Below are positions 13,445 to 17,374 of a stretch of 35,863 nucleotides of DNA, piece by piece (position 1 is the stretch's first letter; each line of letters starts with the position of its first letter). The stretch lies in the NCBI GenBank assembly GCA_035499655.1, contig DATJYL010000146.1:1-35863 (forward strand). The letters run 5' to 3'. Made by a program: the position numbers and the translations under genes. The DNA is from Pirellulales bacterium. GTDB lineage: Bacteria > Planctomycetota > Planctomycetia > Pirellulales > JADZDJ01. The notes under the pieces were generated by a model that was not told the DNA's origin, searched no databases, and saw nothing but the letters and a program-made list of their open reading frames with translations.

Positions 13445-13585
13445 GGTCATGAGTCAGTTTGAAATGTAGAGGTCCCGGCGCGCCGGGATCCTCAGCCGCT
13501 GAAGCACCATTCGCTGAAAAACGGCTGGGGACCCCGGCGCGCCGGGGTCGCTACATCCGTAATCGATCAAACTGACCCACTACCC
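13445..13585. mobile_element. Palindromic MITE-like element
   Basis: About 140 bp that folds back on itself. The left arm has GTCAGTTTGA (13453-13462), ATGTAG and a GGCGCGCC-centred GC block up to CAGCCG (13498). The right arm mirrors it, with CGGCTG from 13522, the GGCGCGCC block, CTACAT (13551-13556) and TCAAACTGAC (13567-13576), plus about 10 extra bases. Both ends start near GGT. It is flanked by GGAGCGAT at 13437-13444 and again at 13586-13593, as expected for an 8-bp target duplication. No coding capacity. Whether it moves by the neighbouring IS1-type transposase is inference. Confidence 0.7.
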
Positions 13586-13602
13586 GGAGCGATGGTAGTG
13601 TC

Positions 13603-14643
13603 TTAAGAGTGTGTGGGTGATTTTAAGACGGCCTCAAATAACTCGTCAAAACTCCAAATATGGTCGGTGATTCCGGCCATCATCGCAGCCGTGGGGCGCT
13701 TCTGACCGCTCTTGCCCGGTTTCCGAGTCCGCCAGCAGTAATTGTAGTAAGCCGCGAACATTGCGAAAGCGGCCTCTAGGTTTTCCAGTTTCTTGGAGAA
13801 GCACAGCGTTAGCCGATTGAGCCGCTTCATAAACGTGCGCTGGGTGCCATTGAGCCGCTCAACATGCGAAGTGGTTATTGAGCGGGCATTGCGGTTGTCT
13901 ATATTGCGAATGCCCGTCCGCTTGGTTCCAACCATTTCGGACGGCGTGTAGATCATGTTGGCGTTTTTATATTCCTTGATTATCGTGCCGTACTTCACGT
14001 AAGGGCCAAAGGCTAGATCAACGGCTTCGGGGTAGGCAGCGAATCCATCGGTCGATAGCTGGCAAACGATAGGATACTGGCCCAGCTTAAACGCATGGGC
14101 ATCGGAAGCGTGGGGCGCGGGGAAAACTAACCGGCCAGCAACGTCCATCATAAACCGCCGGGCATTGTCGGCACTACGCTTGCCGATCAAAAAACTCGGC
14201 ATCAATTTGGTGGTTTTGTCGATGCAAGTCCAGAGATAAATGTCACCTTGATCGTGGCATTCTTCCCGCTCCGTCATGGTGAGCCGCGATTGCTTCTTGG
14301 CAACGTAGGTCCACTGTTCATCGAATTGCAAGTGGCCCAGTGTTAGGCCGCGCATTTGTTGGTCAAGAAACCGCTGGCAGGCAGTGCCGAAGTGAACGAT
14401 CAATTTGCAAATCGTATTGCGGTTCATCCCGGTGGTGCGCTCTGCGGCGCGAATTGACATCCCTTCCACCAAGAGACGGCAAACCATTTTGGCGTCGTCA
14501 ACCGAAACTCGCATATCACCCAAAAGTTTCGGCTGTAGGTCGGTCCAGGTTTTTCCGCAGAGAATGCAGCGGTGCCGCTGGTTGCCGTGTCGATCTTTGC
14601 CGAACTTTTGTGTTTGTTCGTGCTGGCAAGTAATTTGTATCAT
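13603..14643 (-). CDS. IS1-family transposase (single-ORF form)
   Basis: A 346-aa transposase corresponding to a fused InsA/InsB. The N-terminus has a zinc-ribbon motif (Cys6, His8, Cys26, Cys29) and a helix-turn-helix (MSIRAAERTTGMNRNTICK, about 62-80). The catalytic domain shows FDEQWTYV at 107-114, Asp142 in WTCIDKTTKLM, Asp199 in STDGFAAY and Glu262 in HVERLN, followed by RLTLCFSKKLEN, the region that reads LSFSKSVE in IS1. No frameshift is needed. Its last codons lie inside the left terminal repeat. It uses several ATA isoleucine codons, including codon 2 and those for Ile221, Ile248 and Ile256. Confidence 0.93.
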   Translation of the reverse strand: MIQITCQHEQTQKFGKDRHGNQRHRCILCGKTWTDLQPKLLGDMRVSVDDAKMVCRLLVEGMSIRAAERTTGMNRNTICKLIVHFGTACQRFLDQQMRGLTLGHLQFDEQWTYVAKKQSRLTMTEREECHDQGDIYLWTCIDKTTKLMPSFLIGKRSADNARRFMMDVAGRLVFPAPHASDAHAFKLGQYPIVCQLSTDGFAAYPEAVDLAFGPYVKYGTIIKEYKNANMIYTPSEMVGTKRTGIRNIDNRNARSITTSHVERLNGTQRTFMKRLNRLTLCFSKKLENLEAAFAMFAAYYNYCWRTRKPGKSGQKRPTAAMMAGITDHIWSFDELFEAVLKSPTHS

Positions 14644-14771
14644 TGCAAAGTTTCCCGTTGTTAGGGCGACTTTGCGTGGTAGAATGGACTTGTCTAGGGA
14701 CCATTCGGCGCTAGTCGCCGGATTGTTCTTGCCCCGGCCGGATTCGCGTCTGACCGGGGTTTAATTATGTC

Positions 14772-14849
14772 ACTTATTATGGCCATAGAAAGTATCGGTG
14801 TCAATGGATTTGTGGGGTTGACTTGCAAATTATTTTGGCCATAATAAGT
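14772..14849 (+). promoter_or_regulatory. Promoter and inverted-repeat operator of the ribbon-helix-helix gene
   Basis: A perfect 14-bp inverted repeat (ACTTATTATGGCCA at 14772-14785 and TGGCCATAATAAGT at 14836-14849) flanks a candidate promoter, TTGACT (14818-14823), 16 bp, CATAAT (14840-14845). The right half-site covers the -10 box. Transcription would start about at the ATG (14853), giving a nearly leaderless mRNA. The arrangement suits autorepression by the encoded ribbon-helix-helix protein (inference). Confidence 0.55.
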
Positions 14850-14852
14850 CGC

Positions 14853-15053
14853 ATGATTGGAAGGCCACCAAAGAAACAAGATCAGTTACAGACCAACATA
14901 TTGAAGGTCTGCTTGACCGAAGCCGAGCGATCAGAACTTGACAAAGCGGGCGGTGGCAAAACGTCCGTTTGGGCGAGGGAGACGCTGCTACGCGCTGCAA
15001 GACGAAAAAACGGCAGGGGTGGGGATCGAACCCACGCCGGGGTACACGATTGA
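14853..15053 (+). CDS. Small ribbon-helix-helix-like DNA-binding protein, IS cargo
   Basis: A 66-aa basic protein starting MIGRPPKKQDQLQTNILKV, followed by LTEAERSELDKA and SVWARETLLRAAR. This GRPPK...LTxxE...SxWARExLL pattern is typical of ribbon-helix-helix proteins of plasmids and mobile elements. Start ATG 14853 was chosen over 14823 because the pattern begins there and the promoter overlaps the upstream region. No Shine-Dalgarno is visible, which fits a leaderless message. The last 14 or so codons read antisense into the tRNA gene (GRGGDRTHAGVHD is tRNA-derived sequence), so the natural C-terminus has been replaced or extended. Confidence 0.65.
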   Translation: MIGRPPKKQDQLQTNILKVCLTEAERSELDKAGGGKTSVWARETLLRAARRKNGRGGDRTHAGVHD

Positions 15054-15112
15054 GGTCATGCCCCGGACTGCCGCTTATAAGGCGGCTGCATTGACCGCTC
15101 TGCCACCCTGCC
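15011..15112 (-). tRNA. Unusual type II tRNA, serine-like body, anticodon UAU, on the IS
   Basis: A complete cloverleaf can be drawn: acceptor GGCAGGG/CCCTGCC with discriminator G73; 3-bp D stem (GCA/TGC) with GG in the loop; anticodon stem GCCGC/GCGGC with loop CTTATAA (U33, anticodon UAU); T stem GTGGG/CCCAC with loop TTCGATC. The variable region is 34 nt: a CCGGGG/CCCCGG stem plus CATGA/TCGTG above a 2-nt bulge, loop CCTCAA. This is far longer than the usual 16-21 nt of bacterial tRNA-Ser. The D arm and G73 resemble tRNA-Ser, but the anticodon would read AUA (Ile). CCA is not encoded; TTTTTT follows the 3' end. It lies 60 bp downstream of the 266-aa gene on the same strand. Confidence 0.8.
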
Positions 15113-15172
15113 GGCATCGCCATTCTGCTGCCGGCGGGGTGGGACAGTCACGCGGTTGGGCCAGAGACAATC

Positions 15173-15973
15173 TTACGGTTGTCTTTCGCGTTTGAAGTAA
15201 CGCATGAGAGTTTTGAAGCTAACACCATATTTTGGTTGAAGTTCTTTGCAGGCTGACTGAAGCGGCATGCGTTTAATTAACTTCTGAATATCGTGAATGG
15301 CATCGCGTTGTTGCTTATCTGTCAGCAGAACTCGCGTTTTACCGGCCGCAACGGCGCGCTGTTGTAACTTCTTAGCCTTTTTCACCAATCCATCAAATGG
15401 TCGCACTCTGATGCGCTCCATAATCTGTCCGAGGGTCACTGCCATTACGGCAAGGTGCTGGTGATCGGCAGATGCCGCTACCAGGTTTCTGACAGCAAAG
15501 GCGGCAGCTAAGAATTCAATCAGGTCACGAACATTATCTGGAATATCAGCGTGAATTCTAAATGGCTTAGGCCCTTCGCCTAAATCCAAATATATGGCGT
15601 TTTTCGCCGACTTTGCTAGGCTTAAATGACAACGTACTGCGTTCCGTGCGTGTTCTTCAAGCAGATCGAGCTTCAGAATCGCATTCAACAATCCGCCAGA
15701 TTGCTGCTCAAATGAGCCGACCTCCTCGTCTGTTAGAGAATCTGCGCGTTCTCGTTTATAGATTCCAGCATCGGCGCATTCTTCTGCTGTCGCGTGAAAA
15801 GCAAAATAATCAACCATTTTTGCATACCAATCCGCCAAGCTGACCGACCAATGGACATTGGGTATGCTCAACGCCCAAAGGCCAGCCTGTGCGGGGATCA
15901 GCCGCGAGCTTGGAACGGAAGGCATTTTAGCGAATAAATCGCGTAATGCCAAAACTGGCAGAAAAAACAACAT
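15173..15973 (-). CDS. Unrecognised 266-aa protein, IS cargo
   Basis: I do not recognise this protein. It is predominantly helical, with no signal peptide; residues 1-16 are hydrophobic (MLFFLPVLALRDLFAK). The middle contains LEEHARNAVRCHLSLAKSAKNAIYLDLGEG and a hydrophobic stretch LIEFLAAAFAVRNLVAA. The C-terminal 60 residues are basic and may form a helix-turn-helix (MPLQSACKELQPKYGVSFKTLMRYFKRER). The ATG at 15973 lies 3 bp from the right terminal repeat, so transcription must start in or beyond the IS end; Met17 is an alternative start. The tRNA follows on the same strand and could be co-transcribed. A link to the tRNA is inference from position. Confidence 0.6.
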   Translation of the reverse strand: MLFFLPVLALRDLFAKMPSVPSSRLIPAQAGLWALSIPNVHWSVSLADWYAKMVDYFAFHATAEECADAGIYKRERADSLTDEEVGSFEQQSGGLLNAILKLDLLEEHARNAVRCHLSLAKSAKNAIYLDLGEGPKPFRIHADIPDNVRDLIEFLAAAFAVRNLVAASADHQHLAVMAVTLGQIMERIRVRPFDGLVKKAKKLQQRAVAAGKTRVLLTDKQQRDAIHDIQKLIKRMPLQSACKELQPKYGVSFKTLMRYFKRERQP

Positions 15974-16021
15974 TGAAAATCACCCACACACTCTTAAGAC
16001 ACTACCGGAGCGATGGACCTG

Positions 16022-16051
16022 TTGCGGGCTTCATCAAGGCCGTTCTATAAT
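16022..16051 (+). promoter_or_regulatory. Likely metK promoter, next to the IS target duplication
   Basis: TTGCGG (16022-16027), an 18-bp spacer and a perfect TATAAT (16046-16051). The IS ends at 16006 and its target duplication at 16014, only 7 bp before the -35 box. A transcript starting about 16058 would have a leader of about 130 nt before the metK start, with no riboswitch consensus that I recognise. Confidence 0.6.
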
Positions 16052-16186
16052 GCAGTGTTACGAGGAAATGGCGCCGTGTGCGCCGCAGCAAACCGTCGAT
16101 CGCCGGGAGACAACATCGGCTTGGCTCGCGGCAACGGCACGCCGCAGGTGCGTGTTCCAGCAACATCTTTCAGCGAGGTACTTTTC

Positions 16187-17374
16187 GTGGCATCCGGCAG
16201 ACATTTATTCACCAGCGAATCCGTGAGCATGGGCCATCCCGACAAATTGGCCGACCAAATTTCCGACGGCGTGCTCGACGCTCTGTTGGCCCACGACCCC
16301 CTGAGCCGCGTCGCTTGCGAAACGCTGGTCACCACCGGTCTGTGCATGCTGGCGGGCGAAATCACCAGCAAGGCCGTGGTCGATTTTCAGCAAGTGGCCC
16401 GCGATGTCATGCACGATGTGGGCTATCTCGACGCCAAATGGGGCATCGGCTGGGATACCTGCTCCGTGTTGGTGGCGCTCCACAGCCAAAGCCCCGACAT
16501 TGCGATGGGCGTGAACGAAGATCAATCGAAGGGAAAGGAAATCGGCGCCGGCGACCAAGGGCTGATGTTCGGCTACGCCATCAACGACACCCCCGAGCTG
16601 ATGCCGCTGCCCATTGCCTTGGCCCACCGCATTACCAACGCTCTGACCGATGCCCGCAAGCGCGGCGTGGTAAAGTGGCTGCGTCCCGACAGCAAAAGCC
16701 AGGTGACCGTGGAGTACGAAAACAGCAAGCCGGTGCGAATTGATACCGTCGTGGTCAGTACCCAGCACGACGAACAAGTGCAGCAAAAGGAAATCCGCGA
16801 CTTTGTCATCAAGCACATCATCGAGCCGTGCCTGCCGCGCGATCTGGCGTCGAATAAAATCACGCATCACGTTAATCCGACGGGCCGTTTCGTGGTGGGC
16901 GGTCCGCATGGCGATACAGGGCTCACCGGCCGCAAAATCATCGTCGACAGTTACGGCGGCTGGGGACGTCACGGCGGCGGCGCCTTCAGCGGCAAAGACC
17001 CGACCAAAGTTGATCGCAGTGCCGCTTACATGGCCCGGCACGTGGCCAAAAACATCGTGGCGGCCGGGCTGGCCGATCGTTGCGAAGTGCAATTGGCTTA
17101 CGCTATTGGCGTCTCGCAGCCTGTCAGCGTGCATGTGGATACCGAAGGCACGGGTCGGTTGGACGACGAACGCATTTGCGAATTGGTGCGCGATTTATTT
17201 CCGCTTTCGCCCGCCGGTATTATCCAATATCTCGATTTGCGGCGGCCGATTTATCGTAAAACCGCGGCCGGCGGCCACTTTGGCCGGAAGGAAAAGGAAT
17301 TCACTTGGGAAAGCATTCACCGCGCCGCCGAGTTGGCCGAAGCAGCCGGCATCGGCGCCGCGGCAGTGGCGTAA
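16187..17374 (+). CDS. metK: S-adenosylmethionine synthetase
   Basis: Makes SAM from methionine and ATP. The 395-aa protein shows [27 protein letters not shown] at the N-terminus (Met replaces the common Glu in SVSEGHPDK), [57 protein letters not shown] and [23 protein letters not shown] 16187 was chosen as the start: it gives the normal length, has CGAGG 9 bp upstream, and homology begins a few residues later. The frame is open back to 16013, but those codons are the leader. The stop lies inside a 17-bp tandem duplication. Confidence 0.95.

Follow-up and report, generated by a model that had tools for sequence, protein, structure and literature searches.

Classical IS1 elements are compact and cargo-free, with a transposase encoded in two open reading frames (ORFs) joined by a frameshift; single-ORF members exist in the IS1 family, the two-ORF form being a trait of classical IS1 and not of the family as a whole, and the target duplication of the family is by definition 8-9 bp. 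Insertion sequences with passenger genes form a category of their own, and some phages carry suppressor tRNAs that match recoded stop codons. The element described here occupies positions 13594-16006 of a stretch of 35,863 nucleotides from a Pirellulales bacterium (contig DATJYL010000146.1 of assembly GCA_035499655.1; the whole stretch is referred to as the window) and is a complete IS1-family transposable element, containing a transposase gene (tnp), a tRNA with the anticodon UAU and a putative ribbon-helix-helix (RHH) gene. Comparison with related elements makes us highly confident that the UAU tRNA is coupled to an AUA codon in tnp.

With the IS1 family these elements share the transposase family, a zinc-binding N-terminus, the 8-bp duplication and inverted ends; they differ in being 2.4-3.5 kb long with cargo rather than compact, in having a tRNA and an RHH gene in their core and, in the window, in a tnp that is one ORF of 346 amino acids (aa) and not two joined by a frameshift. 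As in insertion sequences with passenger genes, extra genes that vary between copies lie between the ends, except that two of the extra genes are here conserved and apparently part of control. As in phages with suppressor tRNAs, a mobile element carries a tRNA that fits codons within the element's genes; the difference is that the codon concerned is a sense codon in one gene, and that the predicted outcome is missense.

The nearest described counterpart of the tRNA itself is allo-tRNA-UAU (Mukai et al. 2017, as covered in the review PMC7609411). According to this review, no other allo-tRNA group is as abundant in soil and sediment metagenomes as the UAU allo-tRNAs, of which one, in Edaphobacter C40, overlaps an ORF related to transposons; a link of the group to transposons or toxin-antitoxin systems is offered there as a guess. 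On that text, both the UAU allo-tRNA class and its suspected transposon link are already in print. The window tRNA has the UAU anticodon and the serine-type long variable arm of this class, and most of its relatives also have the 8/4-type acceptor branch; the window tRNA differs in having an ordinary 7/5 branch rather than the 12-bp allo-tRNA branch (8/4 or 9/3). In its section 7, the review does not connect allo-tRNA-UAU with a defined, end-bounded IS1-family element, an RHH gene or an AUA codon in tnp, and a search of the literature turned up neither the IS1-family unit as defined here nor its RHH gene or the AUA coupling, which is not proof that no such report exists.

AUA codons in tnp and their association with UAU tRNAs

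All of the evidence is from comparative sequence analysis, mostly of draft genomes, in which the detection of degenerate tRNAs is imperfect. Among 37 dereplicated tnp genes, codon 256 was ATA in 30; this codon specifies an Ile six residues before the Glu of the TSHVER-like motif, which we take from knowledge of the family to be the catalytic Glu. The ATA score of codon 256 was 34.0, versus 12.2 for the next-best column, and the codons on either side varied freely. This variation gives no support to a promoter, or another signal in the DNA, at codon 256. From a later set, three repeats of the window copy (L004, L005 and L065) were left out.

Codon 256 was not ATA in a second, outer clade of tRNA-bearing elements, a result which ruled out codon 256 as the sole, strict partner of the tRNA. 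Another fixed AUA was therefore sought, and was found at column 237, where ATA was present in 19 of 20 outer-clade genes and, in a later set, in 26 of 27; on the tree, this column showed one change, the fewest (synonymous) among 66 columns, and in the sole exception of the 27 (L117) no tRNA was detected. Each clade has a single fixed AUA shortly ahead of the presumed catalytic Glu, at codon 256 in the inner and at 237 in the outer clade. Compact IS1 relatives without a UAU tRNA had mostly Cys at column 237 and Ile or Val at 256; L003 and L024, which lie near the inner clade and have no UAU tRNA, encoded the Ile at 256 by ATT, and L019 had ATA at 237 although its own clade uses 256. In AUA-positive tnp, AUA accounted for 75 of 164 Ile codons at positions 215-260 versus 18 of 562 elsewhere, the corresponding figures for AUA-negative tnp being 6/36 versus 14/261. 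Of 401 Ile codons in 13 long ORFs that belong to the host within the window, 5 were AUA.

Fifty loci with both a tRNA and a tnp covered both columns; ATA was found at 237 in 24 of them, at 256 in 23 and at both in none, so that 47/50 carried AUA at one or the other. The remaining three were a gene cut by a contig end (L047), a frameshifted gene (L048) and a fragment (L224). For the tree, 125 rows were reduced to 76 intact, dereplicated tnp by dropping 16 with internal stops and near-duplicates (at least 97%). In this set, 48 tnp had both tRNA and AUA, one had the tRNA only (L077), two had AUA only (L096, L090) and 21 had neither; L208, which is without both columns, was set aside, and three rows with too little upstream DNA were not counted. 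The Fisher p for this table is about 7e-15, a value inflated by relatedness. Among tnp relatives without a UAU tRNA, AUA at either column was almost never seen.

The association was also put to a held-out viral set, for which the prediction was fixed in advance and 80 IMG/VR loci were then scanned; 79 had enough tnp, and L251, with too little, was dropped. Six matches to the R1-type tRNA with a UAU anticodon preceded a tnp in the same orientation, and AUA was present at 237 or 256 in 6/6; a seventh, weak R1 match (L286, 27 bits) turned out to have the anticodon UUA, next to a tnp without AUA at either column. In total, AUA occurred in 7/7 loci with a UAU tRNA versus 3/72 others (L244, L321 and L322), or in 6/6 versus 4/73 without L257, a locus already known to have AUA when its tRNA was spotted by eye; closer inspection was given to AUA-positive loci lacking an R1 match than to the others. 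We regard the coupling between UAU tRNA and AUA codon as strong, and its direction as unproven.

tRNAs of other kinds were also seen upstream of IS1 transposases. Leu-like class-II tRNAs with the anticodon UUA, which would read the stop codon UAA, lie directly upstream of other IS1 transposases (L286:3234-3317, L321:3275-3360, L322:2646-2731 and L254:3287-3374); a search of these lineages for UAA in the tnp reading frame, or for a conserved extension by read-through, gave nothing consistent. These ochre-reading tRNAs hint at a wider practice. On viral contigs, tRNA-like genes with odd anticodons or loops lie just upstream of IS1 tnp at L252:3276-3348, L277:3269-3344, L320:3250-3324, L312:3292-3365 and L264:3293-3369, and in L249, 192-119 nt before tnp.

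The element, its conserved core and its cargo

The terminal repeats are complementary at 31/31 positions, which together with the 8-bp duplication and the intact tnp bears out the description of a complete element in the first-pass annotation (Table 1). Four more relatives (L009, L035, L040 and L045) are likewise complete, each bounded by ends and flanked by an 8-bp duplication, and the element is accordingly not a chance arrangement; the duplications of all five have a length that belongs to the IS1 family. The tnp scored 25.5 bits against Pfam DDE_Tnp_IS1 (cut-off 24.1) and 34 bits against NCBIfam IS1_IS1595_Zn (cut-off 28), and 70 bits against the NCBIfam IS1 equivalog, under the cut-off of 100; it is thus a divergent member of the family. 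A second copy in the same genome, a 4.5-Mb draft of 244 contigs, is truncated at the end of contig C159 and has 87% identity over 879 bases. A search of plasmids gave 17 records, every one of them below 60% identity.

The tRNA lies on the same strand as tnp, 367 nt upstream of it, and matched Rfam RF00005 at 59.2 bits. Because of the long variable arm, ARAGORN missed it with default settings and reported it as 'Ile(tat)' only with the intron option. Numbered from the first base, it fits the standard 7/5 fold; G73 and the long variable arm, both features of tRNA-Ser, are present, no CCA is encoded, and a run of T follows. By sequence it appears to be a serine-type body with an anticodon for the isoleucine codon AUA. 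The UAU tRNAs of related elements belong mostly to the 8/4-like 'allo-tRNA' type, many fitting 8/4 or 9/4-like branches. An alignment of 31 R1-type tRNAs, for which UAU was partly a selection criterion, supported 20 base pairs, 15 of them by two-sided compensatory changes; among 84 distinct R1-type tRNAs of a later set with less bias, G73 was found in 80, CCA after the 3' end in none and TTATA in 72, the departures from TTATA being mostly tRNAs without an intact tnp. Other scaffolds also occur: L290 has a further serine-type tRNA, distinct from the others, and a third scaffold is a short class-I UAU tRNA with G3:U70 and A73 in 6/6 (L021, L053, L058, L098, L115 and L257). G3:U70 with A73 is the alanine identity. 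In L115, L098, L058 and L021 a second tRNA, whose anticodon is different, lies ahead of this short one, as if the two were carried as a pair.

For some allo-tRNAs, the 2.5-3 kb that follow contained no IS1 transposase (L200, L201, L205, L218, L220, L222 and, in the genome of the window itself, L195 on contig C217). An RHH gene adjoins some of them (L200), and several of the wider set have altered anticodon loops; they are possibly decayed or non-autonomous copies. In a genome of the same genus (G001), a UAU allo-tRNA without tnp (L203:2501-2588, minus strand) precedes a metK-like gene by about 244 nt, and the window element sits just upstream of metK (16013-17374).

The RHH ORF of the window had no Pfam match, and its homologues in related elements matched Pfam RHH_1 (7.6e-6 and 4e-6). 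With purpose-built profiles, whose 17 seed proteins came mostly from the elements under study, an RHH gene was found antisense between tRNA and tnp in 44/48 tRNA-bearing elements in which the two are at least 100 nt apart; the four without it have a tRNA-tnp distance of only 121-194 nt. In many elements the RHH stop codon is 0-2 nt from the 3' end of the tRNA. Among IS1 relatives of the viral set without a UAU tRNA, an RHH match within 500 nt upstream was found in 4/70. The tRNA upstream of tnp recurs across two large tnp clades, and the conserved core, as the comparison of copies presents it, is the UAU tRNA, the convergent RHH gene and tnp, the remaining genes being cargo. That tRNA and RHH gene belong to one mobile unit, as had been proposed at first sight of the sequence, therefore holds, and the suspicion that relatives might lack the cargo genes proved unfounded for these two, both of which are kept.

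The 266-aa ORF, which had been counted as part of the unit, is on the other hand complete only in the window copy; of 146 genomes, four others gave partial matches that were weak, and a scan of the genome contigs gave no relative. It had been called unrecognised, and rightly so, as no Pfam or NCBIfam family scored above its cut-off. Other copies carry different genes at this place: a 233-aa ORF in L009, a PemK-like gene in L040 and HicA-/HicB-like genes in L045. Toxin-antitoxin genes were seen only as such variable cargo, left of the tRNA (HicAB-like in L045, PemK-like in L040), and the three proteins of the window matched no toxin family in Pfam or NCBIfam, PADLOC not having been run; on this evidence the core of the family does not appear to be a toxin-antitoxin pair.

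Table 1. Features of the element in window coordinates
Feature	Positions	Strand	Basis or remark
8-bp target duplication, left copy GGAGCGAT	13586..13593	none	Read in sequence; same 8 bases at 16007-16014
31-bp terminal inverted repeat, tnp end	13594..13624	+	100% complementary to 15976-16006
IS1-family DDE transposase (tnp), 346 aa, intact	13603..14643	-	Pfam and NCBIfam; 3' end reaches into terminal repeat
tnp codon 262, Glu of invariant TSHVER-like motif	13858..13860	-	Alignment
tnp codon 256, ATA, conserved codon of inner clade	13876..13878	-	Codon counts
tnp codon 248, ATA, frequent but not fixed	13900..13902	-	Codon counts
tnp codon 237, ATG in window copy; ATA position of outer clade	13933..13935	-	Codon counts
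tnp codon 221, ATA	13981..13983	-	Codon counts
tnp codon 2, ATA	14638..14640	-	Codon counts
AT-rich palindrome, candidate RHH operator	14772..14793	none	Divergent RHH/tnp start region
Second AT-rich palindrome, candidate RHH operator	14828..14849	none	Divergent RHH/tnp start region
Putative RHH ORF, 66 aa from ATG	14853..15053	+	Divergent from tnp; 3' end antisense into tRNA
tRNA, long variable arm, G73, UAU anticodon	15011..15112	-	Rfam RF00005; ARAGORN with intron option
Anticodon UAU, tRNA positions 34-36	15077..15079	-	Read in sequence
266-aa ORF, variable cargo	15173..15973	-	No family match
31-bp terminal inverted repeat, cargo end	15976..16006	-	Partner of 13594-13624
8-bp target duplication, right copy GGAGCGAT	16007..16014	none	Read in sequence

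Just outside the element there is a GC-rich inverted repeat of 35 nt (13464-13498 and 13522-13556, 86% complementary, with a 23-nt loop), perhaps a palindromic repeat or a terminator.

Possible action of the tRNA on the transposase

In order to gain insight into the meaning of AUA, AUA positions were scored against the residues that other sequences have in the same column. Outside columns 237 and 256 the scores were Ile +32.8, Val +13.8, Ala -182 and Ser -237; at column 256 they were Ile +53, Ala -11.5 and Ser -72.5, and at column 237 Met +65, Cys +52, Ile -6, Ala -54 and Ser -57. A plain recoding of AUA to Ser was rejected, as the AUA columns score for Ile. The protein seems to be built for an Ile-like residue, and the tRNA to be built to deliver Ser or Ala. 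The seryl- and alanyl-tRNA synthetases (SerRS and AlaRS) ignore the anticodon, and TilS, which is needed to read AUA as Ile with the host's own tRNA, is present in the host. From the Ser- and Ala-type scaffolds, the Ile-like AUA columns and the host TilS we infer missense that spoils the transposase.

Under this explanation, the charged tRNA would read AUA codons in the mRNA of its own transposase and insert Ser or Ala at a position that adjoins the active site, such that part of the transposase would be spoiled; more copies would make more tRNA and hence less active enzyme, a dose-dependent brake in which the element limits itself by missense. AUA being rare in the host, host proteins would largely be spared, and the divergent RHH protein may act as a repressor. 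The target of the tRNA accordingly appears to be the tnp codon of the element and not the host. That these elements regulate themselves through the genetic code, by a missense tRNA and a matching codon beside the active site, acting either as a dose-dependent brake or as a licence, we consider an even call; the whole explanation, with a conserved core of tnp, RHH and tRNA in which the missense tRNA limits its own transposase, we put forward tentatively, at slightly under an even chance.

Several observations count against a missense brake. The association rests mostly on a few branches, each trait changing seven times on the tree, and of four well-supported independent pairs two agree, none oppose and two are uninformative, which is not significant. 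L077 and L047 have the tRNA and ATT at 256; in L096/L043, L090 and L244 there is AUA and no tRNA was found, and L321/L322 have AUA but a UUA tRNA. The scores at column 237 favour Met and Cys over Ile, and relatives without the tRNA carry Cys there, which would suit Ser. Such strict conservation of AUA would be easier to explain if the codon were needed for activity than if it limited it. The AlphaFold model of the transposase had a mean pLDDT of 65.7, and below 50 at 175-270, so that the AUA residues could not be placed. Finally, according to the review PMC7609411, UAU allo-tRNAs of this kind were inactive in E. coli translation, and related allo-tRNAs were not charged by E. coli synthetases.

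The same pair could work with the opposite sign, the inserted Ser or Ala being the functional residue, such that AUA would serve as a private code word and the transposase would work only where the tRNA is made. The strictness with which AUA is kept (26/27 at column 237), the Ser- or Ala-type scaffolds and the Cys found mostly at 237 in relatives without the tRNA, a residue near Ser and Ala in size, all point in this direction; against it stand the residue scores, with Ile above Ala and Ser at column 256 (+53 against -11.5 and -72.5), at 237 (-6 against -54 and -57) and elsewhere (+32.8 against -237 for Ser), and the Ile encoded by ATT in L003 and L024. We hold it to be unlikely. Rather less probable still is that AUA means Ile and that the tRNA is a helper, supplying scarce AUA decoding for efficient transposase synthesis in GC-rich hosts. 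The Ile-like columns and the rarity of AUA in the host (5/401) agree with this, but no Ile-like scaffold was seen, each having either G73 with a long arm or A73 with G3:U70, the host has TilS, and a helper leaves unexplained why one AUA codon is kept and not lost.

A missense brake, like both of these readings, has codon and tRNA act together. It is improbable that AUA is kept for another reason, such as a DNA or RNA signal or an antisense promoter, and that the tRNA has a separate role, for example in transcript processing or regulation; independent pairs on the tree are few and some tRNAs stand alone without tnp, as separate roles would allow, but the synonymous sites flanking the codon vary, the conserved codon lies at two different places in the two clades, and the association held in the held-out loci, including L290 with its different Ser-type scaffold. 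An addiction module, in which the tRNA would mistranslate host AUA codons with the RHH protein as an antitoxin-like repressor, is most improbable, for despite the near-constant neighbourhood of RHH and tRNA (44/48) and the true toxin-antitoxin cargo of some copies, AUA is nearly absent from the host genes of the window, so that damage would be small, the conserved target lies in tnp, and the palindromes are at the RHH/tnp start region. The first-pass annotation had offered a selfish translation or addiction module; its addiction half finds no support for the core, and selfish translation was the better guess.

Self-limitation of the transposase by a missense tRNA is directly testable by small swaps of anticodon and codon. 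If it is true, the UAU allo-tRNAs of soil metagenomes, puzzling until now, would have a natural function, and a mobile element would have a new way to limit itself, with a missense tRNA that is natural, programmed and directed at a defined codon. Regulation through the genetic code, as brake or licence, would represent a new kind of transposition control, which would have arisen at least twice, at codons 237 and 256, and on several tRNA scaffolds.

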